The notes beneath the pieces are model-generated. The model was not told the origin of the DNA. It saw only the letters and a list, made by a program, of their open reading frames with translations, and searched no databases. Shown here piece after piece: positions 8,057 through 56,662 of a stretch of DNA of 64,000 bases. The first letter of the stretch is position 1. Each line of letters starts with the position of its first letter. The stretch lies in contig WANR01000040.1 in the NCBI GenBank assembly GCA_015521705.1, positions 1 to 64,000 of the forward strand. The letters are read 5' to 3'. The translations under genes were made by a program, and so were the position numbers. Source of the stretch: Desulfurococcales archaeon. Lineage in GTDB: Archaea > Thermoproteota > Thermoprotei_A > Sulfolobales > Acidilobaceae.

Positions 8057-9226
8057 TTGAGAATAGGCGTTATAGGGGCAGGATTCGCAGGCCTAATGTT
8101 TGCCCTAAGCTTTGCTAGAGAAGGGTATAGCGTGGATGTTTTCGAGGAACATGGCAGAGTCGGTTATCCTCCCCACTGTACCGGAATAGTTTCCTCTAGA
8201 ACAATGGAGCTCATTGGGAGCCCTGCCAAGGAGTCGCTTGAGAGGCGCTACAGGGCTCTATGGATCGGGGCTAATGGGGTATATGCCAGGGTGGAGCCTA
8301 GCGGGTACGTGGCTAAGCTAGACAGGGAGCTGCTCGAGGCTCTCATGTTAGAGGAGCTAGAGTCCCTGGGGGTCAGGGTGTCTCTGGGAACCAGGGTCTC
8401 TCTTGTAAAGCCAGAGGGGAAGATTTGGGTTAGAGGATCCCCTAAGGCCTACGATGCAGTGATCCTGGCCGACGGGTTCCATGGCAGGATCCACAAGAGG
8501 CTAGGCATTGGATATGGGGGCGAAAAGCTTCTGGGGCTAAACGCTATAGCTAGGAGTAGGAGGGGATACGATGATATTGTAGTTGATTTCTCCGAGAGGC
8601 TAAGTGAGGGGTTTTTCTCGTGGATAGTGCCAGTAGAGGGGCATGTAGTGATAGGTACTGCCACCCGCGACCCAGCACTATTGAAGGTAAAGATGAGGGC
8701 GCTAGCCAGAAAGGCTGGTGTAGAGGAGTTTGAGAGGGTGTACGGCGGGCCCGTGCTTCTGGGCCCTCCAGCTGAAAGGCTTTATAGAGGGAGAGTCCTA
8801 GTAGTTGGGGACGCCGGCGGCCTGGTAAAGCCGTTGACGGGGGGAGGGCTTTACCCGAACGCTTTAGCCGCCTCTCTAGCCTCTCTTATGGCGAAGCGTG
8901 GGGTAGACCCGGCAGTAGCTGTGAGGAAGGCTCTCTGCAGGGTGAGTAGGGAACTGTGGGCCCAGTACTATGTTGCTCGGGCGATCCTGGAGAATAAAGG
9001 GGCTCTGGAGAAAGCCGTGTTATTATCTAATATTACCGGCTTAACCGGGGCACTCAAAGGCTCTATAGACTTTGACAGGCATGAAAGAATACCAGCAATA
9101 GGGCTCTCTAACCCCTTCAGGCTGGCGGGTGTCATTGCAGGCCTGGCAATACTGTCGCCAGGCATGCTGGGGCGTGCCGCAGAGTTAGCATCAGGCCTTG
9201 CCGGGAGCCGCAGGTTAAAGTGTTGA
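8057..9226 (+). CDS. FAD-dependent geranylgeranyl reductase family protein
   Basis: 389 residues. GAGFAGL at 7-13 starts an N-terminal FAD-binding Rossmann fold, and GDAGGLVKPLTGGG near residues 255-268 is the second FAD motif typical of geranylgeranyl reductases. Members saturate isoprenoid chains of archaeal ether lipids or related prenyl compounds, so a membrane-lipid role is likely; the exact substrate is not readable. Start is TTG at 8057. A TATA-like stretch (ATTATTTACTAAAGTAATTA) is near 7995-8015. Confidence 0.85.
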   Translation: MRIGVIGAGFAGLMFALSFAREGYSVDVFEEHGRVGYPPHCTGIVSSRTMELIGSPAKESLERRYRALWIGANGVYARVEPSGYVAKLDRELLEALMLEELESLGVRVSLGTRVSLVKPEGKIWVRGSPKAYDAVILADGFHGRIHKRLGIGYGGEKLLGLNAIARSRRGYDDIVVDFSERLSEGFFSWIVPVEGHVVIGTATRDPALLKVKMRALARKAGVEEFERVYGGPVLLGPPAERLYRGRVLVVGDAGGLVKPLTGGGLYPNALAASLASLMAKRGVDPAVAVRKALCRVSRELWAQYYVARAILENKGALEKAVLLSNITGLTGALKGSIDFDRHERIPAIGLSNPFRLAGVIAGLAILSPGMLGRAAELASGLAGSRRLKC

Positions 9227-12020: not shown

Positions 12021-13655
12021 ATGACGGGGAGTTATGGGGTGGAGGACAGGTTCGCTAGGATCACAATTACATTCTCCGTACTGCTCCTACTCTTAGGCGG
12101 CATTTTCGGGCTAGCGCAGGTGATCAATAGAGCCCCCTACTTTGAGCTGCCGAGCTTTCTCGAAGTCTCTCCAAAGACCTATTACACATTCCTTACAGGG
12201 CATGGGGTCTTCCTTGCAGTCGCTATTCCAATATTCTGGATAACCGGGTTCACTGCATACCTCGCCCCACGCGTTCTAGGCAAAAACCTTAGAGGCGGCC
12301 TGCTCCGCCTGTCGCTACTCATGATGTTTGCCGGCGCCATTATGGCGGCAGCCGCCATTCTCTCAGGGAGATCCGCGGTACTGTACACCTTCTATGCGCC
12401 TCTAAAGGCGCACCCACTATTCTATCTAGGGGCAGCACTGCTCGTTCTCGGGAGCTGGGTTTTCGCTGCAGCGTTCTTCCTACAGTACCTCGAGTGGAGG
12501 AGGGAGAACAGGGGTAGAGGTACGCCTATAGCGGTTTATGGCCTGTTAACAACGTTCATTGTATGGATAGAGGCTACCGTGCCACTGGTAATAGACGTCT
12601 TGAAGAACCTGCTGCCCATGAGCCTCTTCGGAGCCAAGGTTGACGCGCTAGAAGCAAGAACCTGGTTCTGGTTCTTCGGGCACCCTCTCGTGTACTTCTG
12701 GCTGCTACCTATAGTGACCCTCTGGTACTACATGATACCCAAAATGCTGGGGGTCAGGATCTTTAGCGAGAAAATGGCTAGAGTGGCTTTTATCATGTTC
12801 ATCATAGCCTCAACACCCGTAGGGCTGCACCACCAGCTGGTGGATCCAGGCGTTTCCGCGGTCTACAAGTATCTACAAGTACTCCTAACACTAGTAGTAG
12901 CATCTCCCAGCCTGTTGACAGCCTTCAACATACTGGCCACCATGGAGATGGGTGGGAAGGCCAGGGGAGGAGGCGCGCTTTCATGGATCCTGAAGCAGCC
13001 ATGGGGCAACCCGGTCTATGCAGGCCTGGCCGTGACGTTCATAGTATTCGGCATTGGAGGGCTCACCGGAATAATAAACGCGGGCTACCAGCTGAACCTC
13101 CTCGTGCATAACACTACCTGGATAGTGGGCCACTTCCACATGACCGTAGCCACTATAGTAGCCGTCGGCTATATAGCTGCCACGTACTCTCTACTAGCAG
13201 AGCTATTTGGTAAAGGCGTGAAGTGGCCCAGGCTAGCCCTGGCACAGCCCTACCTCTGGCTTGTAGGCATACTAATCTTCTCGTTCTCATACTACATTGC
13301 AGGCATGGAGGGTGCACCAAGGAGGATGCTCAACATAGAAGGGGCTGGGGGGCCACCGATCCCCAGCGAGTGGATTTACACCCTCCAGCTGGGGGCCGTG
13401 GGTGGCATAGTAATGAGCGCCTCCGGCGCCCTAGCAGTCCTGGTATTCTTCTACTCGCTACTAAGGGGAGGGATAGCAGTTGCAAGAATAGCTCCCAACC
13501 CGCACCCAGAAGAGGGAGACCCCTACCATCCCCTACTAGAGAACTGGAGACTATGGATAGCAGTAGCTATAGTACTGATCCTCGTAGCCTATATACCGAC
13601 GTTCTACGAGCTCTATTCTAGAGGACTCGCACCTGTCAGCCCTGTCGGCGTTTAA
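12021..13655 (+). CDS. cbaA: B-type (ba3) haem-copper oxidase subunit I
   Basis: 544 residues and about 13 membrane helices. Low-spin haem ligands are His60 (TGHG) and the second His of GHFHM near 372; the first His of that motif binds the high-spin haem. CuB ligands are the His of GHPLVY near 221, whose Tyr four residues on forms the His-Tyr crosslink, and His-His near 270-271. The sequence follows the Thermus ba3 and archaeal B family rather than the A type encoded at 30.7 kb. It starts nine bases after subunit II. Confidence 0.95.
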   Translation: MTGSYGVEDRFARITITFSVLLLLLGGIFGLAQVINRAPYFELPSFLEVSPKTYYTFLTGHGVFLAVAIPIFWITGFTAYLAPRVLGKNLRGGLLRLSLLMMFAGAIMAAAAILSGRSAVLYTFYAPLKAHPLFYLGAALLVLGSWVFAAAFFLQYLEWRRENRGRGTPIAVYGLLTTFIVWIEATVPLVIDVLKNLLPMSLFGAKVDALEARTWFWFFGHPLVYFWLLPIVTLWYYMIPKMLGVRIFSEKMARVAFIMFIIASTPVGLHHQLVDPGVSAVYKYLQVLLTLVVASPSLLTAFNILATMEMGGKARGGGALSWILKQPWGNPVYAGLAVTFIVFGIGGLTGIINAGYQLNLLVHNTTWIVGHFHMTVATIVAVGYIAATYSLLAELFGKGVKWPRLALAQPYLWLVGILIFSFSYYIAGMEGAPRRMLNIEGAGGPPIPSEWIYTLQLGAVGGIVMSASGALAVLVFFYSLLRGGIAVARIAPNPHPEEGDPYHPLLENWRLWIAVAIVLILVAYIPTFYELYSRGLAPVSPVGV

Positions 13656-30699: not shown

Positions 30700-33060
30700 A
30701 TGGCCGAGACAAGTAGCCTCAAAAGGTGGCTGATGACTACTAACCACAAGGACGTGGGCATACTATACCTAGTGACCTCCCTGTACTTCTTCATAGTAGC
30801 CGGGAGCCTGGCCCTACTAATGAGGCTACAGCTAGCTGTCCCAGAGAACAACTTCTTGACGGCTGCCAACTACAACGCTGCAGTCACCAACCATGGACTA
30901 TTAATGGTGTTCTGGTTCCTTTCACCGCTGGGCTTCGCCTTTGCCAACTACTTCGTGCCCATACAGATCGGAGCCAAAGACATGGCCTTCCCCAGGCTGA
31001 ACGCCCTAAGCTACTGGCTCCTACTCTTCGGCGGCCTGCTAGTACTAGCAGGCTTCTTCATGCCAGGAGGCACCGCAGACTTCGGGTGGACGGTCTACGC
31101 GCCTCTGAACACCGACGAATTCACGCCCAATCCTGGAGCTAACCTGGTGGCTTTCGGCCTGCTAATGCTGGTAGCCTCAGTAACTGTCGGGACAGTAAAC
31201 TTCGTGACGACCATAGCTCTCCTGAGGGCTAAGGGGTACAGGTACACTCAGCTGCCCATGTTCACCATAGGCATACTGATAACAGTTCTACTAATGCTCT
31301 GGGCCTTCCCATCGCTACAGGCAGGCCTAGTCATCCTGGGTGCCGATAGGCTTCTCGATGCCCAGGTGTTCTCGGCCCCAGAGGGAGGGGCAATCCTGTG
31401 GGACCACCTCTTCTGGTTCTTCGGCCACCCAGAGGTCTACATTGTCTTGATACCAGCGCTGGGCGCGGTGCTCGACATAATACCTGTATTCTCTAGGAAG
31501 CCGCTGTACGCCAGGAAGACTATCATAATATCGCTTATCGTCGCGGGCATACTGAGCTACATGGTGTACGCACACCACATGTTCATGACCGGTGTACCAA
31601 CGTTCTACCTGGAGATCCACAGCCTCACAACTGAAGCCATATCCGTCCCCTTCGGCGTCATAACGATACTAGCCATAGCCACGATGATCGGGGGGGCTAT
31701 CAGGCTGTCAACGCCGATGCTATTCGCTCTCGGCTCAATAGCCGTATTCATCATAGGTGGCATAACTGGAGTGTTCAACTCGTCCATGGTTCTGGACACG
31801 GCTAACAGGGGTACCTACTGGATCGTGGGCCACTTCCACTACGTCATGGTAGGAGCCGCCCTCTTCGGACTATTCGGCGCCTTCTACTACTGGTTCCCTA
31901 AGATGACTGGCAGAATGTACAACGAGTCCCTTGGAAGGCTCCACTTCATCATATCATTCATAGGCTTCAACCTACTCTACTTCCCGATGTTCCTACTGAT
32001 AGACATGCCCAGGAGGGTATTCACGTACCCCGAGTGGACTGGCTGGGGCCCATTGAACTTCATAGCCTCTGTAGGAGCATTCATATTCGGGCTCTCACAC
32101 CTAATAATGTTCGCCAACTTCCTCTACAGCATGAAGAAGGGACCGCTTGCCGACAACAACCCATGGGGCTCCTGGACGTACGAGTGGCTCATAGACTCTC
32201 CACCCTCAGAGTTCAACTTCGACGGGATACCGATAGTCTCTGGCAATAAGCTATCAATAGCGATGGCTAACGGCGCCTCTCACTCGCACCACGAGGGCGA
32301 CCACTACAGTATATGGCCATTCGCAATATCCGCAGGGCCCTTCCTGGCACTACTAGGACTAGGCATGATGGTGGCTGGTGTCAGCGGTGGAGTCCCGCTG
32401 CTGGCGCTCGGAGTAATAGTGTCCCTCGTAGCCGTAATTGGGTGGGCTAGGGAAGACTACAAGGAGAAGTTCCACGACCTGGAACCCCTAGAAGTGAAGG
32501 AGACATGGCCATTCCAGGGTATCAGCAAGTACAAGCTAGGAATGTGGGTGTTCCTCTTCGGCGACGCAGTATTCTTCGCCGGGCTACTAGGCAGTAACTT
32601 CTTCGTACGAGCCAATAACCCGCTACTCCCATCAGGGCCCGAGGTGAAGAACCTGATAGTGGGGGCCCTCTCAACGATCGTCATGATAATGGCTGCCCTC
32701 GGAGTCTACATCGCCGCTAAGGCTGCAAGGCTAGGTAACTCGCGCATGGCACTCCAAGGTCTAGGCATGGGCCTGGTCCTGGGCATCTCGTTCGTAATAA
32801 TATCGGCTCTAGACTGGATACAGACGTTTAGCCAAGGCTTCACACTAGAGAACCCGGCCATAGCCACGGGCTTCATAGCAGTATTCTCGCACCTGCTACA
32901 CCTAGGCGCTGGCTTCATACCGCTAATATACTTCATGATCAAGATAGCAGCAAAGGGCATAAGGGGCGCGATGCCAGATGCTATGGACGCTCTCTCGCTA
33001 TACTGGAGCTTCCTGGCACTAGTGAGCATAGGCATCTACGCGGTGCTCTACCTGTTCTAG
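30700..33060 (+). CDS. coxA: A-type cytochrome oxidase, fused subunits I and III
   Basis: 786 residues. Residues about 1-520 are subunit I: low-spin haem His65 (NHG), CuB His in GHPEVY near 242 with the crosslinking Tyr, His-His near 292-293 and HFHY near 378-380. A His-rich loop (about 527-534) links to a subunit III-like part (about 600-786) with five helices. The I-III fusion is known from Aeropyrum (aoxB), Sulfolobus SoxM and some bacteria. It should reduce oxygen to water and pump protons. Confidence 0.96.
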   Translation: MAETSSLKRWLMTTNHKDVGILYLVTSLYFFIVAGSLALLMRLQLAVPENNFLTAANYNAAVTNHGLLMVFWFLSPLGFAFANYFVPIQIGAKDMAFPRLNALSYWLLLFGGLLVLAGFFMPGGTADFGWTVYAPLNTDEFTPNPGANLVAFGLLMLVASVTVGTVNFVTTIALLRAKGYRYTQLPMFTIGILITVLLMLWAFPSLQAGLVILGADRLLDAQVFSAPEGGAILWDHLFWFFGHPEVYIVLIPALGAVLDIIPVFSRKPLYARKTIIISLIVAGILSYMVYAHHMFMTGVPTFYLEIHSLTTEAISVPFGVITILAIATMIGGAIRLSTPMLFALGSIAVFIIGGITGVFNSSMVLDTANRGTYWIVGHFHYVMVGAALFGLFGAFYYWFPKMTGRMYNESLGRLHFIISFIGFNLLYFPMFLLIDMPRRVFTYPEWTGWGPLNFIASVGAFIFGLSHLIMFANFLYSMKKGPLADNNPWGSWTYEWLIDSPPSEFNFDGIPIVSGNKLSIAMANGASHSHHEGDHYSIWPFAISAGPFLALLGLGMMVAGVSGGVPLLALGVIVSLVAVIGWAREDYKEKFHDLEPLEVKETWPFQGISKYKLGMWVFLFGDAVFFAGLLGSNFFVRANNPLLPSGPEVKNLIVGALSTIVMIMAALGVYIAAKAARLGNSRMALQGLGMGLVLGISFVIISALDWIQTFSQGFTLENPAIATGFIAVFSHLLHLGAGFIPLIYFMIKIAAKGIRGAMPDAMDALSLYWSFLALVSIGIYAVLYLF

Positions 33061-46558: not shown

Positions 46559-47362
46559 CTATCTAGTGACTTCCTCTACCTGCCTATACCACGGCTTCGC
46601 TGTACCCACCTTGGCCCTTTTGAGCCACTTCTTGCTCTTCGGTTCCTCCTCTATCAGAGCTTTTAGTTTCTGGATCCTCTCAGCGATTATATTAGCCATG
46701 GCTTGTGGTATTTTGCCTGTGCCTGTAGAGGCCCTGACTAGGTTTTCCAGCCTGTTTAAATTCGTGGTCGCATCATACCAGAAGCCCCAGTCGTCTGCAA
46801 GCACTACAGCGATCCTCTTGCCATTTATGCAGTATGGAGACTCGGCCTCGCAAACGTCGTATCTAGCGAAAAGAACTGCCAAGTCTACTAGGTCCTTCCT
46901 GTTTATCTCGTGTATTTGGAGTTTTTCGAGGACAAGGTCCTCTAGGGGTATTGTGGGGTAGTCTAGCTCCAGTCTTCCTTTAAGCACCACGTCGTGGCTA
47001 AACTCTAGCTTGTCCAGAAACACGTCGACCTTCACCTTATCCCTAGGATCCTGGAATATAAGCCTCTTATCGCCAAAGAGTCTGTTAACGTAGAAGTCTG
47101 GCTCGTATCCCAGTCTTTCCTCGAAGAACCTCCTTATCTGCTTTCTCTGCTTCGAATAGCCGGCCAAGTCTATGTCTGTGAAGAGTAGGCCTGAGCCTAG
47201 CCTTCCCAGAGCCCTCACCGCCTCTATGCATTCCTCGCAGTCTCTTATCTTAAGGAATACTGCAAGAGCCCCAAGGATCCTCAGGATCACACCCTCGGAG
47301 GAGGCTCTCTCCACTATCTCTATGGCCCGCTCAGCTATTAGGGAGTCCCTCTCGCTAATCAT
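46559..47362 (-). CDS. Predicted nucleotidyltransferase (Pol beta-like fold)
   Basis: 267 residues. A helical start leads to LFTDIDLAGYS near 59-69, the D-x-D metal pair, and VKVDVFLD near 110-117 with the third Asp; VLEKLQIHEINRKDLVDL near 144-161 is the helix that follows in AbiEii-like and related nucleotidyltransferases. Last gene of a six-gene operon, overlapping the amidotransferase by four bases. Its substrate is unknown. Being with a glutamine-synthetase-like enzyme it could modify that protein, as the NTase-fold GlnE does in bacteria, but this is inference. Confidence 0.72.
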   Translation of the reverse strand: MISERDSLIAERAIEIVERASSEGVILRILGALAVFLKIRDCEECIEAVRALGRLGSGLLFTDIDLAGYSKQRKQIRRFFEERLGYEPDFYVNRLFGDKRLIFQDPRDKVKVDVFLDKLEFSHDVVLKGRLELDYPTIPLEDLVLEKLQIHEINRKDLVDLAVLFARYDVCEAESPYCINGKRIAVVLADDWGFWYDATTNLNRLENLVRASTGTGKIPQAMANIIAERIQKLKALIEEEPKSKKWLKRAKVGTAKPWYRQVEEVTR

Positions 47363-48198
47363 TGATAGTCACCTATACTAATTCTCCCCTCGTAGACGAC
47401 CTCAGCCCCGGAGACCTTATAGATGTCAAAGCTCCCATTGGGGAACTCAGCCCACTCTATGTACCCAGGGGCTGGATTATAGTAATCCACTATAGTCGAT
47501 GAAGCATACACGATGCTACCACCTGCCCTGCCTATATAGAGCTTGTAGTACCCCCTCCTCTCCTCAGGCTTGTCAAGCAGCTTATAGTAGCTTCCAACGA
47601 CTAGCAAAGCCTTTTCAGGCGATAGAAGGAATGCTGCAATATTCATTGCGGTTTTAGTGTAACGGGCAGCTTCCTCGAAGAGGGAGGCGTTGGCTAGGTT
47701 GCTTGCCCTCGATGCTAGGAATCTAGCTAGAAAATACGAGTCGTTATAGATAGATTTTTCCCTCTTGCTAGCTCCAACAGCTCTTGCCAGCCCTTCTTTA
47801 TCGACGGAGCCGTTATGGATCAGGAGTAGCCTGTAGCCGTCGGGGGAGCTGGCCTCAACTGGGTGGACCGAGAACATGTTTACAGGCATGCCCGTGCTCG
47901 CGGCTCTCGCGTGGATCATTTCCACTAGAGGGCCCTCATAAGCCAGGAAGGGGGGCTCCACGTCGTCCTCAAATATGGGCTTTAGGCTTCGATAGACCGT
48001 GTAGCTCTCAACGCCTGCCTCGCCTATTTTGGCGGCGAAGAGGCCCCAACCGTCTCTATGGCTTTCCTCGTCTTCGCCGAATAGTCTCCTAGAGTATGGG
48101 TCTCTGCGTGCCGCTCTTATAAGGGAGTTGTACAGCTTCCTCCTAAAGTCGCGCCTCACACCGTTCTTGCCACCGACTAGTACAAGCATCCTGCACAT
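47359..48198 (-). CDS. Class II (Ntn) glutamine amidotransferase-like protein
   Basis: 279 residues. MCRM places Cys2 as the N-terminal nucleophile after Met removal; HRDGWG near 47-52, MIHARAAS near 93-100 and LIHNGSV near 124-130 are the class II amidotransferase motifs (YafJ-like). No synthetase domain is fused, so it may act as a gamma-glutamyl amide hydrolase or lend ammonia to a partner. Seven bases after the FluG-like gene. Confidence 0.85.
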   Translation of the reverse strand: MCRMLVLVGGKNGVRRDFRRKLYNSLIRAARRDPYSRRLFGEDEESHRDGWGLFAAKIGEAGVESYTVYRSLKPIFEDDVEPPFLAYEGPLVEMIHARAASTGMPVNMFSVHPVEASSPDGYRLLLIHNGSVDKEGLARAVGASKREKSIYNDSYFLARFLASRASNLANASLFEEAARYTKTAMNIAAFLLSPEKALLVVGSYYKLLDKPEERRGYYKLYIGRAGGSIVYASSTIVDYYNPAPGYIEWAEFPNGSFDIYKVSGAEVVYEGRISIGDYQ

Positions 48199-48205
48199 GG
48201 AGGCC

Positions 48206-49384
48206 TCACACCTCTACCCCGTAAACTCTTTCAGCGTTCCTGTAAAGCATGGCCTCTGCTATTTCGAGGGCCTCGCCGCTGGTTATAATCCCCTTAGATT
48301 CGAGGTCTGACAGGACTCTTGACAGGGACTCTTTAAAGGCTAGCGCTGAGATCCACGCTATCTCTGGCACGTAATAGCCGTCGGAAGCATACATGACTTT
48401 AGTAAAGGGGGCCAGCTCTATTGACTCCCTTATCCTGTTATCAAGGTTAGCTATGCCGAACGGCGTGGCTATCGAGAGATCCATGTAGACGTTGGGAAAA
48501 GCATTTACCAGGTAGGATGCCAAAGGCGTCCACGGATAGCCTCCATGGACCAGCACTATTTTGGTCTTCCTAGTCCTTTCGTCTTTAAGGAACCTGAAGA
48601 TACTAGTGGGGGAGGCTTTTTCTAGTACAATATCCTTGTCACCTATGCCTGTGTGGATCTGGATCACTTTCCCGTGCCTGGCAGCTTTCTCCACGGCTAG
48701 GGATACCACGTACTCCCTTAACGACTTTACTACGGGGCCGAACCATTCCCTGGAAGCCTTGCCCCGCTTAACGTCTTCGAAGTCTCTCCTGGCCTTCGAT
48801 TCCTCGCCCCACTCGATGGCCAAGCCTACCCGGTACGCTATTATAGTCTTATAGCCTACGTACCTGGGATTTCTAGCATAAGAGTCCAGTGAGTTCTCTA
48901 TTAGGCTCTGGAAGTCGCTGAAAGTCTCTGACTCGGAGAGCGCCCTAGCTATATCCGGCTCGAGGCGGTGCAAGTACCAGACCTTAACGCCGGCCGGGAG
49001 GTTGGCTTCGAACTCTTTCAAATCAACCATCGGCAGCGCATGCTCACCTACAGCCTCGGAGTGGCCGTCATCCACTATGAGCCCTGATATGTTAGCACTC
49101 GCGAATAGTCTTGCTACATAGGACTTGAAGCTCCTGGAAGCCTCTAAGCGCCTAGCTTCCATTACTGCCTTCTCATTAGCAGGAACGCCCAGCAGGCTAG
49201 CGAGGCGTCTAACCGTGTACCTGTATATTACTAGGTCTGTGGTTCCACCCACAGATTTTCCAGGTTCATAACCAGGCCCTCCGATAGCTAGGAGCGCAGC
49301 TAAATGCTCAGGAGACAAAGAGTCTAGCTCAGGATTGAAAGGGTGCACATGAGTGTCTATGACACTGATCCCGGCTACTGCCAT
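48206..49384 (-). CDS. FluG-like amidohydrolase (TIM barrel)
   Basis: 392 residues, amidohydrolase-2 family. DTHVHP at 10-15 gives the first metal histidines, IQIHTGIGD near 245-253 and LVHGGYPW near 281-288 further ligands, and YASDGYYVPE near 338-347 the catalytic Asp. Fungal FluG and its bacterial relatives join such a domain to a glutamine-synthetase domain; here the two are neighbouring genes. It may hydrolyse the gamma-glutamyl product. Confidence 0.85.
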   Translation of the reverse strand: MAVAGISVIDTHVHPFNPELDSLSPEHLAALLAIGGPGYEPGKSVGGTTDLVIYRYTVRRLASLLGVPANEKAVMEARRLEASRSFKSYVARLFASANISGLIVDDGHSEAVGEHALPMVDLKEFEANLPAGVKVWYLHRLEPDIARALSESETFSDFQSLIENSLDSYARNPRYVGYKTIIAYRVGLAIEWGEESKARRDFEDVKRGKASREWFGPVVKSLREYVVSLAVEKAARHGKVIQIHTGIGDKDIVLEKASPTSIFRFLKDERTRKTKIVLVHGGYPWTPLASYLVNAFPNVYMDLSIATPFGIANLDNRIRESIELAPFTKVMYASDGYYVPEIAWISALAFKESLSRVLSDLESKGIITSGEALEIAEAMLYRNAERVYGVEV

Positions 49385-49414
49385 CGATCGACCCCTTTCC
49401 TAGAGATGCCAGTC

Positions 49415-50758
49415 TCAAAAAGCTTCGAGGAAAACCTTTCTCTCCCAATCAGTAACAATGCCGTGGTAGAGGTCCCACTGGAACTTCTTCAGGTTATAAT
49501 ACTCGTTGACGAGCGTGTCGCCCCATGTCTTCCTCATAAGGTCGCTCTTATGGAACTCTCTTATAGCGTCTAGGAGGTTCTCCGGGTACCTATACCATCC
49601 CTTCTTCTCGCGCTCTTCCTCGGGAACTGTTGCTGGGTTCTCCAGGCAGGGCTCTCCGGGATCTATCTTCTTATCGATACCCTCGAGGCCCGCAGCTATT
49701 ATGCTACCTATGGCCAGGTAGGGATTGGAGGTTGCGTCGACGAATTTTAACTCTAGCCTGAGAGCCTTCTCCTCCTTCCCCTGCGGCTGTTTAGGGATCC
49801 TGATCGCTGCCTCCCTGTTTTCTGGACCCCAGCAGGCATAGGCTGAAGACCACGAGTTGGGCTTGAGCCTTTTATAGGAGTTAACGGAGGCGGCTGTCAC
49901 CGCTATTATTTCCTTTAAGTGCCTGAGTATTCCTCCAATGAAATAGTATCCCTCCTCGCTGAGGCCGTACTTGTCCTTATCAGAGTAGAGGGCGTTCGTG
50001 CCGTCGCGCCAGACGCTAACATGTACGTGAAGCCCAGACCCTGGGAGGTTCTCTGAGGGCTTGGGCATAAATGAGGCGTAGAGGCCGTGCCTCCCTAGAA
50101 CGCCTCTGAGGGTTTCCCTGAAGTACACTAGCTTGTCGGCCGCTACTAACGGCTCGTAGGGTGACATGGATAATTCGTGCTGCCCGGACCCGTATTCTGG
50201 GTAGTAGTGCTCCACGCCTATCCCCTGCTGCCTTAGCGCCTCTATTACCTCTAACAGTATACCGTGAATATTCTGCATTCCATGAGTTGAGAAGCAGAGG
50301 TGGCTCTCAAACATCTCAACTACGCCTCTTTCAGCCTTCCTTAGGACATAGAACTCAGGCTCGAACCCTACCAGGAAGGAGTACCTGGTGTCTTCCAACA
50401 TGGCTCTAAGCTTAGGCCTGGGATCCACCTCGTGCGGTTTCCCATCGACATACTGGTCAACGATCATGGCTGCGGTAGCTTCGGCGTAGGGGAGCACAAC
50501 TAGGGTCGAAGGGTCGGGCTTCAACGTTACCTCTCCCCGAGGACCGTAGACTGTGCCTGGGGGGACCAGGTCTGTCAAGCTAAAGCCCGACTGCATTATC
50601 ATGGCGAGGGTTAGGCCTCCGTCGAGGTCGCTCTCGAGGGATTCTACCTTCGATACTCTGCCACGGATCATGTTGTCTAGGTCCACGTAGAGGTACCTGA
50701 TGAGCCTGACTCCTCTATCCTCGAGGAAACGCTTTATCTCCCCAACATCTAGGGGCAT
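49415..50758 (-). CDS. Glutamine-synthetase-like ligase (gamma-glutamyl amine synthetase?)
   Basis: 447 residues, glutamine synthetase fold. GFEPEFYVL near 131-139 and PEYGSGQHELS near 191-201 hold the metal Glu/His residues, LHVHVS near 248-253 the catalytic His, NSYKRLKPNSW near 294-304 and ENREAAIRIP near 313-322 the ATP/glutamate arginines. The short, divergent N-terminus with ...LYVDLDNMIRGR and the operon partners (APC permease, FluG-like hydrolase) suggest a GlnA3/PuuA-like gamma-glutamyl-amine synthetase rather than the housekeeping GlnA. Confidence 0.82.
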   Translation of the reverse strand: MPLDVGEIKRFLEDRGVRLIRYLYVDLDNMIRGRVSKVESLESDLDGGLTLAMIMQSGFSLTDLVPPGTVYGPRGEVTLKPDPSTLVVLPYAEATAAMIVDQYVDGKPHEVDPRPKLRAMLEDTRYSFLVGFEPEFYVLRKAERGVVEMFESHLCFSTHGMQNIHGILLEVIEALRQQGIGVEHYYPEYGSGQHELSMSPYEPLVAADKLVYFRETLRGVLGRHGLYASFMPKPSENLPGSGLHVHVSVWRDGTNALYSDKDKYGLSEEGYYFIGGILRHLKEIIAVTAASVNSYKRLKPNSWSSAYACWGPENREAAIRIPKQPQGKEEKALRLELKFVDATSNPYLAIGSIIAAGLEGIDKKIDPGEPCLENPATVPEEEREKKGWYRYPENLLDAIREFHKSDLMRKTWGDTLVNEYYNLKKFQWDLYHGIVTDWERKVFLEAF

Positions 50759-50774
50759 TGCCTGGACACCCCCG

Positions 50775-51725
50775 CTAGCCTATCTTGAACCACTTGTCAA
50801 TGCCGTCCCTGGTCAAGTCTACTATCACCCCCTTAAGTACTCCGTTCCAGTACTCGGATCCTGGATTTATGACCAGGGTCTTTTTGACCTTATCGTAGCC
50901 TTCAGACTCGTGTATGTGGCCGTGTAGGCCTAGGAGGGGCTTATGCTTCTCCATGAATTTCCTGACGGCCCGGCAACCGACGTGCTCCATCTCTAGCTCG
51001 CCGAACCTATATACCGGCTTGAGGTTCTTATCGAGCTTGGGGGCCAGGTCTATGTTGGTCTTGTACGGTGGGCAGTGGAAGTTGCAGATCGTCCTATCCC
51101 AGTCTGTGACCCCGCTAGAGGCCCTTTCCAGCATCTTACCAAGCTCCTTCTCGCCGGCCTCCCGTGGAGTGCCCCATGGTGTGGGGTTCACGTAGTCCAT
51201 GCTCACGACCTGGTATCCCAGGCCTATATCTAGGGTTCTACCCAGAGGGTAGATCACCCTCTCGCTCGACTCGATCACGGCGTCTATGTCCTTAATGTCA
51301 TCGTTGCCCGGCATCATGATCACTGTCACCTCAGGACTTATAGACTCCTCAAGCACCTCTACCCACTCCTTGATCCTCTCTACCATGAGTCTCCTGAAAA
51401 TCCTGTCAACCTTCTCTGGGCTCTGCTTTAGCTCCTCAACCTCGTCTCTGGTAGTTACGTAGGGGTAAACGCCCTTGTCTAGCAGAGCCCTCTTAACCTC
51501 AGCCAGGCCCTTCTCTCCCTCGCCAGAATACTTCCTTCCCTGGTAGACGGCCGTGTACTTGCCTCCCGGCTCTTCTATAACTGGGACCATGGCCTTTCCG
51601 GTGAGGTCACCTGCTATTATCATGACGTCGGGCTTGTAAATTGCTGGGATCGAGAGTACCTTCCTGAAAACGGCCTCGCTGTTATGAATATCTGCCACGT
51701 AGAATAGCCTGAGCCTATCGCTCAA
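50775..51725 (-). CDS. Metallophosphoesterase (calcineurin-like)
   Basis: 316 residues. Metal motifs in order: ADIH near 11-14, AGDLT near 38-42, PGNDD near 140-144, NFHCPPYK near 213-220 and GLHGHIHE near 260-267, all present. Four-base overlap with the permease gene and a 16-base gap to the ligase tie it to the operon. It may act on a nucleotide, phosphodiester or protein-linked AMP; the substrate is unknown. Phosphoesterases are not part of known gamma-glutamylation pathways, which makes its place here odd. Confidence 0.85.
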   Translation of the reverse strand: MSDRLRLFYVADIHNSEAVFRKVLSIPAIYKPDVMIIAGDLTGKAMVPVIEEPGGKYTAVYQGRKYSGEGEKGLAEVKRALLDKGVYPYVTTRDEVEELKQSPEKVDRIFRRLMVERIKEWVEVLEESISPEVTVIMMPGNDDIKDIDAVIESSERVIYPLGRTLDIGLGYQVVSMDYVNPTPWGTPREAGEKELGKMLERASSGVTDWDRTICNFHCPPYKTNIDLAPKLDKNLKPVYRFGELEMEHVGCRAVRKFMEKHKPLLGLHGHIHESEGYDKVKKTLVINPGSEYWNGVLKGVIVDLTRDGIDKWFKIG

Positions 51726-53362
51726 AGCGGCGGCACCTCCTTGTAGATCCTCGATATATCTATCCCCCGCTTCTTGTTCTTATTACTATAATAAAGGTAT
51801 AGAACGACGGCCAGGGCTATCCATAACACCATCCAGGCCGTGGAGACCGGGTCTCCAATGATCTGCGACGTGCCAAGCCCTATAACTGCCAGAGAAAAGG
51901 CTGTAGCTATGGCGCCAACTATGGTGACAACCGGTATTCCTGCAACCTTTCTCGTAACACCCTGAGCGTAGAGGTCGGGCCTCCTGAAAGGTAGCAGCAT
52001 TAGAGCTATGGCTGAGAAGAGCCATCTGACCGAGATGGCTGTTATCACGGAGATCAGGTAGACCCATGGACTATAAGCCGTCAATAGAACCATGATGACC
52101 CCCAGTATCATGACTAGAAGTATAGACCAGTGGGGAGACCTAAACCTGTCATTGACCTCTGCAAGCTTCTCGGGGAACATTCTATCGAAGCTCAGAGCAA
52201 AGACTATCCTAGTAGGCACCATTATGTACACAGGCAACCCGTCCATAACCAGTAGGGGGACAGCAAGTGTTATGAGCACCGCCAGCAGGGGGAGCGAGTC
52301 GCCCAACAGTCCTGCAAGGAAGACCGCCCACGTGGGCGTCTGGGCAGGGTTGATCTCCAGCATTTCGACGGCTTCAGGCGTGTTCATGACATAGTTGTAG
52401 GCTGAGTAGAACTCCCTGAAGCCTAATAGTGTGAAGGTGCTGACGACCAGGTAGTAGCCGACTATGAGCAGTATGGCCCCAGTAACACCTACAAGGAATG
52501 ACCTCCTTGGATTAACGACCTCCCCCGCCATGTAGTTGGCGAACTCGAATCCCCAGAAAGCGTAGACGGAGGCCAATAGCCCTGTGAATAGAGTGACCCC
52601 GAGACTCCAGGGCCCCGGCCACCCCCAAGCTCCTGGGATCCCGGAGGATTCCTGCACATAGGACTCCCAGCCAGTCTGCCTTGCCACGCTCATTATCTCG
52701 TCGTAAGCGCCTGCCCCGAAAGTGGCGTCCCATAGCGCCTTGACCTCGGCCTGGGAGAGGGTAGAGGCATACACGGCTGCGGCAACGTTGGAGACGCCGG
52801 CCGCTATAGCTACCAGGAAGAACACGTTTACTACATACTTGAAAACGTTGGTCCCAAGTATTTGCAAGACACTGAAAACTATTACGGAGACTATGCCTAT
52901 CAGTACTTGGAGATTGACGTCTGTAGACAACAGCTCGCCCCACGCTATGAGGCTATTCGAGCCAAGCAGTATACCCGCCTGGACTAGGAATGCACCCCAG
53001 AACCATGCAAGGAAGAAGGAGAGAGCGCCCACGATCCAGATATGCACGCCTATAGTCAGTATGGCTTCCAGGTAGCCAAGGAACGGGTGGAGAACCCTGG
53101 AAATGGCCACGTAGTCCGAAGCTGTTCTAGGGACTGTGACAGTGAGTAGAACAACTGCAAACGCCATGAAACCCATCATAACAGCGCCCACTACCAGGGC
53201 TAGAGGGATATTAGAGCCGGGAGCCTGGTAGCCCAAGCCTGCCACGAAATAGTAGAAGCCGTCGGCTATGACGTAGCTGCCTGCTATAGAGAGGATCGTT
53301 AGGGGGCCTATGGTTCTTACAAGGCCGGAGGCTCTTCTAACGAATACTACCTCTTCACCCAT
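51722..53362 (-). CDS. APC-superfamily amino acid/amine permease
   Basis: 546 residues, about 12 membrane helices. GPLTILSIAGSYVIADGFYY near 19-38 is the first-helix substrate-ion loop, and FWGFEFANYMAGEVVNPRR near 259-277 holds the conserved helix-6 break and Glu of APC carriers (FEXXXXXXXEXXNPRR). First gene of the operon, importing an amino acid, polyamine or related amine. A long external loop (about 205-245) lies between helices 5 and 6. Confidence 0.88.
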   Translation of the reverse strand: MGEEVVFVRRASGLVRTIGPLTILSIAGSYVIADGFYYFVAGLGYQAPGSNIPLALVVGAVMMGFMAFAVVLLTVTVPRTASDYVAISRVLHPFLGYLEAILTIGVHIWIVGALSFFLAWFWGAFLVQAGILLGSNSLIAWGELLSTDVNLQVLIGIVSVIVFSVLQILGTNVFKYVVNVFFLVAIAAGVSNVAAAVYASTLSQAEVKALWDATFGAGAYDEIMSVARQTGWESYVQESSGIPGAWGWPGPWSLGVTLFTGLLASVYAFWGFEFANYMAGEVVNPRRSFLVGVTGAILLIVGYYLVVSTFTLLGFREFYSAYNYVMNTPEAVEMLEINPAQTPTWAVFLAGLLGDSLPLLAVLITLAVPLLVMDGLPVYIMVPTRIVFALSFDRMFPEKLAEVNDRFRSPHWSILLVMILGVIMVLLTAYSPWVYLISVITAISVRWLFSAIALMLLPFRRPDLYAQGVTRKVAGIPVVTIVGAIATAFSLAVIGLGTSQIIGDPVSTAWMVLWIALAVVLYLYYSNKNKKRGIDISRIYKEVPPL

Positions 53363-53551: not shown

Positions 53552-54175
53552 TTATTTCTTTACAAAAGCCAGCGCCCTCTCTATCCAGAACCTGTGAATC
53601 CTCGTATCTCCAGCTAGCTCCGGGTGAAAAGCGGTAGCCATTAGCCCGTCTTGCACCGCTACAGCGCCTACCTTCTCGCCGCGATAATTCACCCATCCAA
53701 CTATCCGGGCCCTCCCCCATGCCGACTTAATGGCGGGGCTTCTAATGAAGACTCCCCGGAAGGCCTTTTCAAACCCTTCAATGCTGATCTCAGCCTCGAA
53801 GCTCTCCCTCTGTCTGCCAAAATAGTTCCTCACAACTTCGATGCTCATGGATCCTATTAGTGGCTGGCTCTTCTCGCCCAGAACTCTGTCTGATACCTTT
53901 TCAGCCATTATTATTGCTCCTGCACAAGTGCCCAGAACAGGCATTCCACCCGCCACTCTCTCCCTAATCCTGTCTAAGACTCCCGTCCTGTGAGCTAGAA
54001 TACCAATCGTGGTAGACTCGCCTCCAGGTATTATCAGGGCGTCTACCGCATCCACGTCTGCAGGCTTCTTTACAATACCGACACTACCCGAAACACCCAC
54101 TTCTTCGAGAGCCCTCCTAGTCGTGTATACATGCTCATACACGCCTCCCTGGAAGCCGAGGACTCCAACCCTCAA
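53552..54175 (-). CDS. pdxT: PLP synthase glutaminase subunit
   Basis: 207 residues, class I amidotransferase. [12 protein letters not shown] near 4-15, IPGGESTT near 49-56 (oxyanion loop), nucleophile Cys in GTCAGA near 82-87, and FHPEL near 188-192 for His and Glu. It supplies ammonia to PdxS. Overlaps pdxS by four bases. Confidence 0.96.
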
Positions 54176-55284
54176 GACTCTGCCCCCCTCACCTGGAGTA
54201 GTTCCTCAGGTTTTAGCTTCCTCACATCTATCCCCATCATGCTTTTCTCCTCACTTATCATCCTCTGCGCCTCCGCTACACTCTCTGGGTCGTCCCACAT
54301 GCTAGTGGCTAGCACTATTGCAGCAGCCCTTTCTGCCGGGTCCCTGCTCTTGAATATACCGCTCCCTACAAAGACGCCGTCGGCGCCAAGCCACATCATG
54401 AGAGCTGCGTCGGCAGGAGTAGCTATGCCCCCGGCCGCGAAATTGACTACAGGCAGCCTGCCCAGCTTGGCTGTAAACTCGACAAGCTGGCTGGGCACGC
54501 CTAGTTCCCTAGACACCCTGAGTAGCTCCTCTGATGGAAGGCTCCGGAGCCTCCACACCTCATTCATTATTTGCTTCATGTGCCTAACGGCTTCGGCAAC
54601 ATTGCCTGTCCCTGCTTCACCCTTTGTCCGTATCATTGAGGCTCCCTCATAGATCCTCCTAAGAGCCTCCCCCAGGCTCCTTGCACCGTTAACAAAGGGG
54701 ACCTTGAAAGCCCACTTGTTTATGTGATGCGCCTCGTCTACAGGGGTTAGAACCTCGCTCTCGTCTATCATGTCCACTCCTATGGCTTCAAGTATCCTGG
54801 CCTCATAGTAATGACCTATCCTAACCTTGGCCATGACCGGTATCGTAACGGCCTCCATAACCTGTTCTATAACCTTGACATCAGCCATCCTAGCAACGCC
54901 GCCAGCACGCCTCACATCATAGGGCAACTTGTCGAGAACCATCACAGCCACGGCACCTGCGTCTTCAGCTATACCCGCCTGTTCAGTGTTAGTTACATCC
55001 ATGACAACCCCTCCCTTCTGGAACACCGGGAAACCATGCTTCACGCTAATAGTGCCTTCCACGGGCTCTAAGAGGTCGCTAGGAGGCTTCGCAGGTGCAT
55101 AAGGGAGCGGGCGGTCTTCCCCCTTGAGAATATCTGCTGCCTCTGCCAGTTTGTAGAAGAACTCGACTATCTCGTGGAAGCCAACCTCGTAAAGCCTGAT
55201 AGACCTGCTAAGGGGCCCGTAAAGTGGCTCCACAAGCTCCCACCCAAAACCCAATTTATACTTTGGATCCCGGTATTTAAGCAA
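54172..55284 (-). CDS. pdxS: PLP synthase lyase subunit, N-terminally extended
   Basis: 370 residues. From about residue 85 it follows PdxS closely: [10 protein letters not shown] with the catalytic Asp near 98, [11 protein letters not shown] with the first Lys near 155, and [11 protein letters not shown] with the second near 222. It makes PLP from ribose 5-phosphate, glyceraldehyde 3-phosphate and ammonia. The first ~80 residues (helical, Pro-rich near 60-70) are extra compared with bacterial PdxS; a later GTG/ATG is possible but no good one lies before the core. Starts 34 bases after the aminotransferase. Confidence 0.95.
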
Positions 55285-55318: not shown

Positions 55319-56662
55319 CTACCAGCCCACGTAGTCTTTAATAGCGCTGTCCGGCACCCTGCCTTTCTCCACGTCGTCTATAGCTTTGTCCAGTATGCCT
55401 AGCGCTTCGTCAACTTCTCTTCCACCTATTATGAGGGGGGGTGTTAGCTCTATAACGTTAGAGTAGAGCCCAGTATAGGCTGTTACTAGCCCGAGCTCCC
55501 ACGCTCTGTAAACTATCTTGGCCGTCTCCCTAGCGCCGGGCTCTCTAGATTCCTTGTCCTTCACCACTTCTATGCCAGCAATGAGCCCCAACCCGCGGAC
55601 TTCCCCCACTATACTCTTCTCCCTTTCCAGTTTACGAAGCCCCTCAAGCATGTACTTGCCAGTCCTTTCGGCGTTACCCACTAGATCCTCTCCCTCTATA
55701 ACATCTATAGTGGCGAGGGCTGCAGCCGCTATGGCTGGATGGGGGGATAAGGTGAAGAGGTGCATTACCTTGTTACAGTCTGCGAGCTCCGAGGGCATTA
55801 TGACCGCGCTTAAAGGAAGCCCCGAAGCCAGAGGCTTACCCAGAACTATTATGTCTGGAGCTATACCGCTATGCTCGAACGCGAACATCCTGCCAGTCCT
55901 CCCCATGCCTACTTTAACCTCGTCAACTGCCAAGTAGATACCATGCTTTCTGGCTATCCTTTCTAGCTCCCTCAGGAATCTAGGAGTAGGAATAATGTCC
56001 CCGGCGTCGCTTTGCAGAGGCTCTACTATGATCACCGACACGGTCTCTGGCGGCGCTATAGTGTTGAATATGTAGTCCTCCAGGAACCCTATACAAGCCT
56101 CCTCGCACTCTGGCTGCCCCGCTACACCCTTGAAGGGACACCTATAGCCGTAGGGATATGGAACTTTCACTACGTTGGGGAGCCCTACTATCCCGCTTTG
56201 GGCCTTGTGGCCGCTGATGCTATAGGAGCCCATGGTTTGGCCATGGTAAGATCCTATGAATGATAGTATCCTTGGCCTCCCAGTGCATGCCGGCAGGATC
56301 TTTGCGATAGAATCGTTAGCGTCCGATCCCGAATGCCCGAAGATCACTTTCTTACCATCCCCGTCAGCCACTAGTCCTAGGAGCCTCTCGGCTAGACTCA
56401 CAACAGTTTTGCTTGAGAAGCTCGTATAGGAGAGGGCTGTAAGCTTAGAGTACTCCCTGAGGAACGCCTCTATAACCCTCTTGTGGCCGTAACCCGTGTT
56501 TGCCACGGCCCATGCAGCATTAAAGTCGAGAAGCTTGCGCCCGGCAGCATCATACACATAGGCGCCTCCTGCTTTCTCTATGACTGCAGGATAGAACCTT
56601 ATCTGGGATATGCTTCCTACAGCTCTTTTCTCCCTCTCCAAAACCTCTCTCGTATAGCCCAT
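55319..56662 (-). CDS. Class III PLP aminotransferase or amino-acid racemase
   Basis: 447 residues, fold-type I subgroup II (GABA aminotransferase, ornithine aminotransferase and archaeal amino-acid racemases). GHSGSDANDSIAK near 109-121, the YHGQTMGS motif near 138-145, DEVKVGMGRTG near 248-258 and the Schiff-base Lys in LGKPLASGLPL near 279-289. It precedes pdxST on one transcript, so PLP supply and use are linked. It may transaminate an amine or omega-amino acid released by the neighbouring gamma-glutamyl pathway. Confidence 0.88.
   Translation of the reverse strand: MGYTREVLEREKRAVGSISQIRFYPAVIEKAGGAYVYDAAGRKLLDFNAAWAVANTGYGHKRVIEAFLREYSKLTALSYTSFSSKTVVSLAERLLGLVADGDGKKVIFGHSGSDANDSIAKILPACTGRPRILSFIGSYHGQTMGSYSISGHKAQSGIVGLPNVVKVPYPYGYRCPFKGVAGQPECEEACIGFLEDYIFNTIAPPETVSVIIVEPLQSDAGDIIPTPRFLRELERIARKHGIYLAVDEVKVGMGRTGRMFAFEHSGIAPDIIVLGKPLASGLPLSAVIMPSELADCNKVMHLFTLSPHPAIAAAALATIDVIEGEDLVGNAERTGKYMLEGLRKLEREKSIVGEVRGLGLIAGIEVVKDKESREPGARETAKIVYRAWELGLVTAYTGLYSNVIELTPPLIIGGREVDEALGILDKAIDDVEKGRVPDSAIKDYVGW

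Follow-up and report, generated by a model that had tools for sequence, protein, structure and literature searches.

The gene set at the locus

The window considered here is a 64,000-nucleotide (nt) stretch of contig WANR01000040.1 (positions 1 to 64,000, forward strand) from a Desulfurococcales archaeon. Between positions 46559 and 53362 its minus strand has six intact open reading frames (ORFs) arranged head to tail which, with a further gene upstream, appear on balance to serve for taking up an amine and metabolizing it by a gamma-glutamyl-dependent route. In order of transcription, they encode an APC-type permease (APC; 51722–53362, 546 aa), a predicted importer of amines or amino acids; a metallophosphoesterase (MPE; 50775–51725, 316 aa), with a TTG start and a 4-base overlap with APC; a glutamine synthetase (GS)-like protein (49415–50758) after a gap of 16 bases, predicted to be a gamma-glutamyl-amine ligase; a FluG-N-like Amidohydro_2 hydrolase (AH; 48206–49384) after a gap of 30; an N-terminal nucleophile (Ntn) hydrolase resembling class II glutamine amidotransferases (GAT; 47359–48198) after a gap of 7, predicted to hydrolyze gamma-glutamyl amides; and an MNT-type nucleotidyltransferase (NT; 46559–47362) overlapping GAT by 4 bases. 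A preliminary description of this stretch gave the same layout, with its 4-base overlaps and gaps of 7–30 bases, and took the six genes as the whole unit. They are all there, but the unit runs further upstream, to a gene left out earlier for a pyridoxal phosphate (PLP)-dependent enzyme of class III aminotransferase fold (AT3; 55319–56662), directly upstream on the same strand. AT3 homologs recur beside GS-like genes, and AT3 belongs to the same recurrent gene set as the six-gene operon.

The earlier family assignments were mostly upheld. Pfam matches pass their cut-offs for APC (AA_permease, 39.5 bits), MPE (Metallophos, 25.9 against 21.5 bits; Metallophos_2, 27.4 against 27), the GS-like gene (Gln-synt_C), and AH (Amidohydro_2, PF04909, 67.5 bits). 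Those of GAT to GATase_6 (26.6 against 27) and of NT to the AbiEii-type nucleotidyltransferases (16.6 against 22.5) sit below the curated cut-offs.

The glutamine synthetase-like ligase

The ligase was aligned with GlnA and PuuA of E. coli, with four archaeal GS regarded as canonical, and with further GS-like proteins. It retains E129, E131, E212, E220, G265, H269, H271, S273, R321, R339, R344, R355, and E357, with substitutions at E327 (W), Y179 (C), N264 (P), R359 (K), and Y397 (A). There is no DGSS motif: although position 50 has an aligned Asp, it is not in a DGSS context, and S53 is replaced by P. The ammonium-site residues are therefore gone while most of those for glutamate, metal, and ATP are kept, which is the pattern of an amine ligase by the criteria of PMC8394153 (this paper, PMC5403932, and PMC6478659 are cited here from the accessible parts of their text). 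Haloferax GlnA-2, experimentally shown to be a glutamate–putrescine ligase, is likewise without E327, D50, Y179, and Y397 (PMC8394153). The ligase does not have the make-up of a canonical type I GS; both E327 and DGSS are present in E. coli GlnA and the four canonical archaeal GS, and two aligned Bacillota sequences are canonical in the same respects.

The best NCBIfam match is to GGputSyn (NF045547, 448.9 bits), followed by type III GS (287) and GlnA (286). A tree of 38 sequences places the ligase in one group with its four close relatives (100/100). The next to join are GlnA2 and a FluG-like GS of Haladaptatus together with a Meiothermus GS (100/99), and both canonical GS and PuuA fall outside; the positions of Meiothermus and PuuA, which have long branches, are uncertain. 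It is 42.5% identical to Haladaptatus GlnA2 and 26% to E. coli PuuA. Ammonium site, NCBIfam ranking, and tree thus all favor the gamma-glutamyl-amine type proposed in the preliminary description over a glutamine synthetase. The protein is very probably not a GS, and we infer that it is an amine ligase.

The putative hydrolases

In AH, residues K179, H244, H280, and D335 are found in 13 of 13 sequences and H12 and H14 in 12, the exception being from a genome (G136) whose called ORF begins after them. The protein matches PDB 2qpx (E 6e-27), the structure used for FluG-N (PMC6478659). An Amidohydro_2 gene with its metal ligands thus adjoins a GS-like gene, as in FluG but in two genes. This adjacency is seen in all 15 family f11 genomes with this ligase type, and also in Haladaptatus and Meiothermus. 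The split of the FluG pair, which had seemed a novelty, is real here, but the Streptomyces coelicolor pair glnA3-SCO6961 is already an example, adjacent and polyamine-induced, with the second gene a predicted hydrolase (PMC5403932).

GAT has MCR, HARAAS, and HNG motifs that are invariant in four sequences; in three others the called ORF begins upstream of MCR. An AlphaFold2 model from a four-sequence alignment (pLDDT, predicted local distance difference test, 81.8) has EgtC (4zfl) as its first Foldseek match (E 1.5e-10), followed by GlmS (1.7e-10). Superposed on 4zfl_A, it gives a Z score of 19.6 over 219 residues, with a root mean square deviation of 3.2 and 22% identity. An N-terminal Cys in a predicted Ntn fold agrees with the earlier call of an Ntn hydrolase. 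EgtC is the Ntn hydrolase of ergothioneine synthesis, and GAT may work like it, going by the modeled fold; at 22.8 bits against a cut-off of 218.65 for the EgtC equivalog (TIGR03442), it is not filed as one. No plasmid relatives of GAT were found at E 1e-5.

Close relatives and distribution

Gene order was searched in 147 genomes (the window's own and 146 others). A wider, non-exhaustive search by pattern-seeded scan covered one genome from each of 84,980 species and confirmed 103 relatives, of which 80 were kept. Among these 80, only four records have a ligase at least 59% identical: two Ignisphaera metagenome-assembled genomes (MAGs), a Crenarchaeota MAG, and a Desulfurococcales MAG, taken here as the close relatives G068, G052, G332, and G036. 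In the order search, a close ligase is present in 3 of the 146 other genomes. The 20 same-family relatives have no ligase of ortholog strength, and no AH or NT match at E ≤ 0.001. With only four close ligases, none of them in these relatives, the distribution is patchy, probably through horizontal transfer. The GC content is flat across the operon (0.51–0.55), so that base composition gives a foreign origin no support.

Arrangements among the close relatives vary. In G068, GAT faces AH-GS-APC, where the APC permease scores differently (PF13520). G332 has GS-AH near a contig start, and the 4.3 kb that follow AH contain no GAT. Overall, GAT is near the ligase in three of the four and an intact AH adjoins it in two. 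Of the 76 loci beyond these, some only 3–7 kb long, 71 have no other homolog of a window gene; the exceptions have AH (L180, L193, L211) or AT3 (L181, L216).

Family f21 loci, AT3, and DUF6885

The most informative comparison is with family f21, from the same phylum, where eight loci in seven genomes were read (a further f21 ligase match, in G378, is outside these). In each, one strand carries a gamma-glutamyltranspeptidase gene with those for MPE and APC, and GS-DUF6885 and AT3 are alongside. The transpeptidase adjoins MPE in all eight, and NT is present in all seven whose contig continues. One DUF6885 and one transpeptidase were checked against Pfam, and family searches covered all eight loci. 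The window permease is 56–58% identical to those of f21, the next best being 34% among the loci read and 33% in the order search; MPE is 55–58% identical, the next at most 49% among the loci read. The ligases are only 37–39% identical, and the f21 genes are in opposing transcription units, with the transpeptidase and DUF6885 standing in for AH and GAT. By these identities, the window shares its permease and MPE subfamilies with f21 but combines them with an Ignisphaera-type ligase and the AH/GAT pair. The two putative hydrolases are therefore replaceable. That loci of the same kind have different candidate gamma-glutamyl-cleaving enzymes is the best evidence for gamma-glutamyl chemistry. The window's own genome has a transpeptidase on another contig.

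AT3 is 66% identical to its counterpart in G036, where it is placed between the permease and the GS-like ligase, 48–51% to those of the eight f21 loci, and 49% to one beside a GS-like gene in a gammaproteobacterial MAG. Matches on rhizobial plasmids reach 46% and those in the order search 43%, a small margin below f21. On three rhizobial plasmids that were opened (L224, L225, and L226), AT3 and a GS-like gene are about 8 kb apart. The conserved bacterial cluster that holds both also includes an N-formylglutamate amidohydrolase, a pair of isochorismatase-family hydrolases, and an ABC transporter of the branched-chain type.

DUF6885 (PF21819) gave 12 hits in 11 of 18 genomes, all 12 beside a GS-like gene; the 14 control genomes gave none. 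The 18 were chosen for carrying GS-like genes, so this shows linkage where the domain is present and not exclusivity. The pair is found in archaea of several families, including on a Haladaptatus plasmid (L231–L237, L250, L124, L242–L244, L227). No paper found names DUF6885, in a search that left most of the subscription literature outside.

The APC-MPE-NT cassette

Eighty-nine NT loci were compared: 85 of the 106 places outside the window (21 were not read), and four more. Within 5 kb of NT, MPE is present at 62, APC at 66, and both at 58, while offset control regions of the same genomes have MPE or APC in 0 of 40. The ligase is within 5 kb at just 10. Among the 27 loci without MPE at this distance, seven are from f21 (with MPE 5.5–5.8 kb off), three are from f11, one has APC only, and 16 have none of the three. 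At the three f11 loci, NT precedes GS-AH instead; the 16 comprise eight in f11, seven in f31, and one in f21 near a contig end. In the window, the three genes are within about 5 kb and their catalytic motifs are intact. NT residues G31, D63, and D65 are found in 100% and D113 in 97% of 87 sequences, and MPE residues D12, H14, D40, N141, H217, H268, and H270 in 99–100% of 69. A structure prediction for NT from its single sequence reached a pLDDT of just 38. Examples elsewhere (L125–L128, L138, L139, L245–L249) have varied permeases and gene orders, and the L245 stretch has three copies of each gene.

Because they accompany many permease types, mostly without a ligase, NT and MPE are most simply seen as transporter accessories. 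One regulatory role was considered for NT, adenylylation of the ligase at the GlnE site, and ruled out because Tyr397 is absent; NT and MPE are thus not GlnE-like regulators acting at that residue. A bolder and unlikely alternative is that they form a writer/eraser pair that would reversibly nucleotidylate APC (or a small-molecule signal of the amine taken up), joined here to gamma-glutamylation with interchangeable deglutamylating enzymes (EgtC-like, FluG-N-like, transpeptidase, perhaps DUF6885). If this were so, it would be a new way of controlling amine uptake in archaea. Searches of the literature, with most subscription papers outside their reach, returned nothing on an archaeal permease-phosphoesterase-nucleotidyltransferase operon, nor on a class II glutamine amidotransferase with a GS-like protein as a gamma-glutamyl hydrolase.

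Proposed function and alternatives

The locus would, on the reading we consider somewhat more probable than its alternatives together, take up an amine and metabolize it in gamma-glutamylated form. Gene content, the state of the active sites, and the conserved linkage are observed; the substrate, the direction, the order of steps, and every reaction are deduced. The permease would bring the amine in, and the GS-like ligase, with ATP, would couple the amino group of this amine to glutamate at the gamma-carboxyl. AT3, with PLP, would work on the free or the capped amine, and the EgtC-like Ntn hydrolase, alone or together with the FluG-like amidohydrolase, would cleave the gamma-glutamyl amide and give back glutamate. 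MPE and NT would be accessories of the permease cassette, probably regulatory and outside the gamma-glutamyl chemistry. The substrate is probably a di- or polyamine or an amine derived from an amino acid; confidence in any particular one is low.

Several observations weigh against this reading. The ligase does not reach the equivalog cut-off of GGputSyn (650), and we therefore do not class it as specific for putrescine. As had been reported, neither an amine oxidase nor an aldehyde dehydrogenase is in the gene set; with no aldehyde dehydrogenase, the full route from putrescine to gamma-aminobutyrate is not encoded there. PurF (Z 19.4) and GlmS (18.4) nearly tie with EgtC as structural matches to GAT, and its fold therefore picks none of them. 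The GAT family is found in 107 of the 147 genomes; of the six genomes besides the window's own with a copy at least 42% identical, three (G015, G026, G004) are without a close ligase ortholog, which means that GAT is not linked exclusively to the ligase. Genes of the AT3 family are frequent, present in 119 of the 147 genomes (E ≤ 1e-60), and since its closest solved chains include caprolactam and amino-acid-amide racemases as well as class III aminotransferases, AT3 may be a racemase rather than a transaminase. In G052, where GAT faces GS, what lies between them is an AH remnant with three stops (L123:923-1222, an Ignisphaera MAG), and G036 has the order GAT-APC-AT3-GS-DUF6885 with no AH match. 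The preliminary description had also looked to conservation of the six-gene neighborhood: the link between permease and ligase recurs, but none of the other genomes searched showed the exact order.

This last result would also be expected if two unrelated cassettes simply touch here, APC-MPE-NT for transport of some amino acid and GS-AH-GAT for metabolism, with no common substrate. The six-gene order is indeed the widespread APC-MPE-NT cassette joined to a ligase/hydrolase set found elsewhere without it: most of the NT loci read have APC-MPE-NT and no ligase, and two Ignisphaera MAGs have GS and GAT (with AH intact in one) and neither MPE nor NT in the 12–16 kb read. Against a chance juncture, the same permease and MPE subfamilies, AT3, and a related ligase are together in all eight f21 loci, NT is directly before GS-AH in G136, G146, and G050, and other APC permeases are near the ligase in G068 and G036. 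A lack of any shared substrate is thus rather unlikely. That the ligase is after all an ordinary ammonia-dependent glutamine synthetase in an amino acid operon is very improbable. It is the sole PF00120 gene found in its own genome (55 contigs, 82% complete), and there is the Asp that still aligns at position 50. However, a GS homolog at most 40% identical to it is present in 19 of the 20 same-family relatives. The one aligned (from G111) has both E327 and DGSS, and the true GS of this genome therefore probably lies in what the assembly lacks. The ordinary-GS explanation is rejected on sequence because E327, DGSS, Y179, and Y397 are altered and, in the tree, the ligase stands outside the canonical clade.

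The direction could also be the reverse, with the locus making a gamma-glutamyl-capped amine (an osmolyte, signal, or detoxified product, of the sort suggested for fungal FluG) whose level the hydrolases only set. FluG is proposed to act via a gamma-glutamylated intermediate (PMC6478659), and the absence of any oxidase or dehydrogenase at the locus would suit such a system. However, a permease plus AT3, each time with a candidate gamma-glutamyl-cleaving enzyme, is found here, in G036, and in all eight f21 loci, which fits consumption better, and polyamine breakdown is the role given to the Streptomyces relative (PMC5403932). A biosynthetic or protective role is accordingly doubtful.

Uptake and breakdown through a gamma-glutamyl amine would make this a known kind of system in a new configuration; the set of partner genes is new and the chemistry would be a variant of a known route. 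If this is correct, heat-loving crenarchaeota have gamma-glutamyl-amine metabolism; glutamate–putrescine ligase activity was first reported for an archaeon only in 2021, in a haloarchaeon (PMC8394153). The hydrolase step would then be filled by non-homologous enzymes in different lineages. DUF6885 gains a first functional context, beside GS-like ligases, and a widespread APC-MPE-NT transporter cassette is brought to light.

Comparison with known systems

Among the closest known systems is the archaeal ligase GlnA-2 of Haloferax mediterranei (PMC8394153), also GS-like and altered at E327, D50, Y179, and Y397; GGputSyn is the best family match, and the window ligase groups in the tree with Haladaptatus GlnA2. 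The 42.5% identity is to this Haladaptatus protein, not the Haloferax sequence, and is accompanied by a score below the equivalog cut-off. Haladaptatus glnA2 is beside DUF6885, whereas the window ligase is beside AH and GAT. In the Streptomyces glnA3-SCO6961 pair, similarly, the gene of a GS-like gamma-glutamylpolyamine ligase is immediately followed by an Amidohydro_2 gene; the accessible part of PMC5403932 shows that operon without a permease, an EgtC-like hydrolase, an aminotransferase, or MPE/NT.

Like the E. coli Puu locus, this one combines a permease, a GS-like ligase, a hydrolase, and an aminotransferase (PuuE in E. coli). The ligases are distant, however, and an Ntn hydrolase stands in for PuuD; PuuB, PuuC, and a class I PuuD are not among the locus genes, the rest of the genome not having been searched for them. 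Aspergillus nidulans FluG (PMC6478659) shares the Amidohydro_2 and GS-like pair, as a single protein; here there are two genes, and in addition a further hydrolase, a permease, and an aminotransferase. The f21 loci have homologs of the permease, MPE, AT3, ligase, and NT in one neighborhood.

Other features of the window

Two more genes on the minus strand are between AT3 and the permease, named by eye from their translations: PdxS (54172–55284) and, between it and the permease, PdxT (53552–54175). We take the pair to be a PLP synthase. It is separated from the permease by 189 bases, and no PdxS or PdxT match was found in 20 close-relative and order-search loci or in 20 further loci, so the association is seen here only. 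A scan for sigma-70 promoters and terminators gave counts no higher than in shuffled sequence; that promoter type is not archaeal. A TTTTTAAG stretch 58 bases before the permease start, spotted by eye, is a candidate only. Farther away, 37 kb from the operon, is a gene resembling flavin adenine dinucleotide-dependent oxidoreductases (8057–9226; DAO, 40 bits). Two heme-copper oxidase subunit I genes (12021–13655 and 30700–33060) suggest an oxygen-respiring member of the order.

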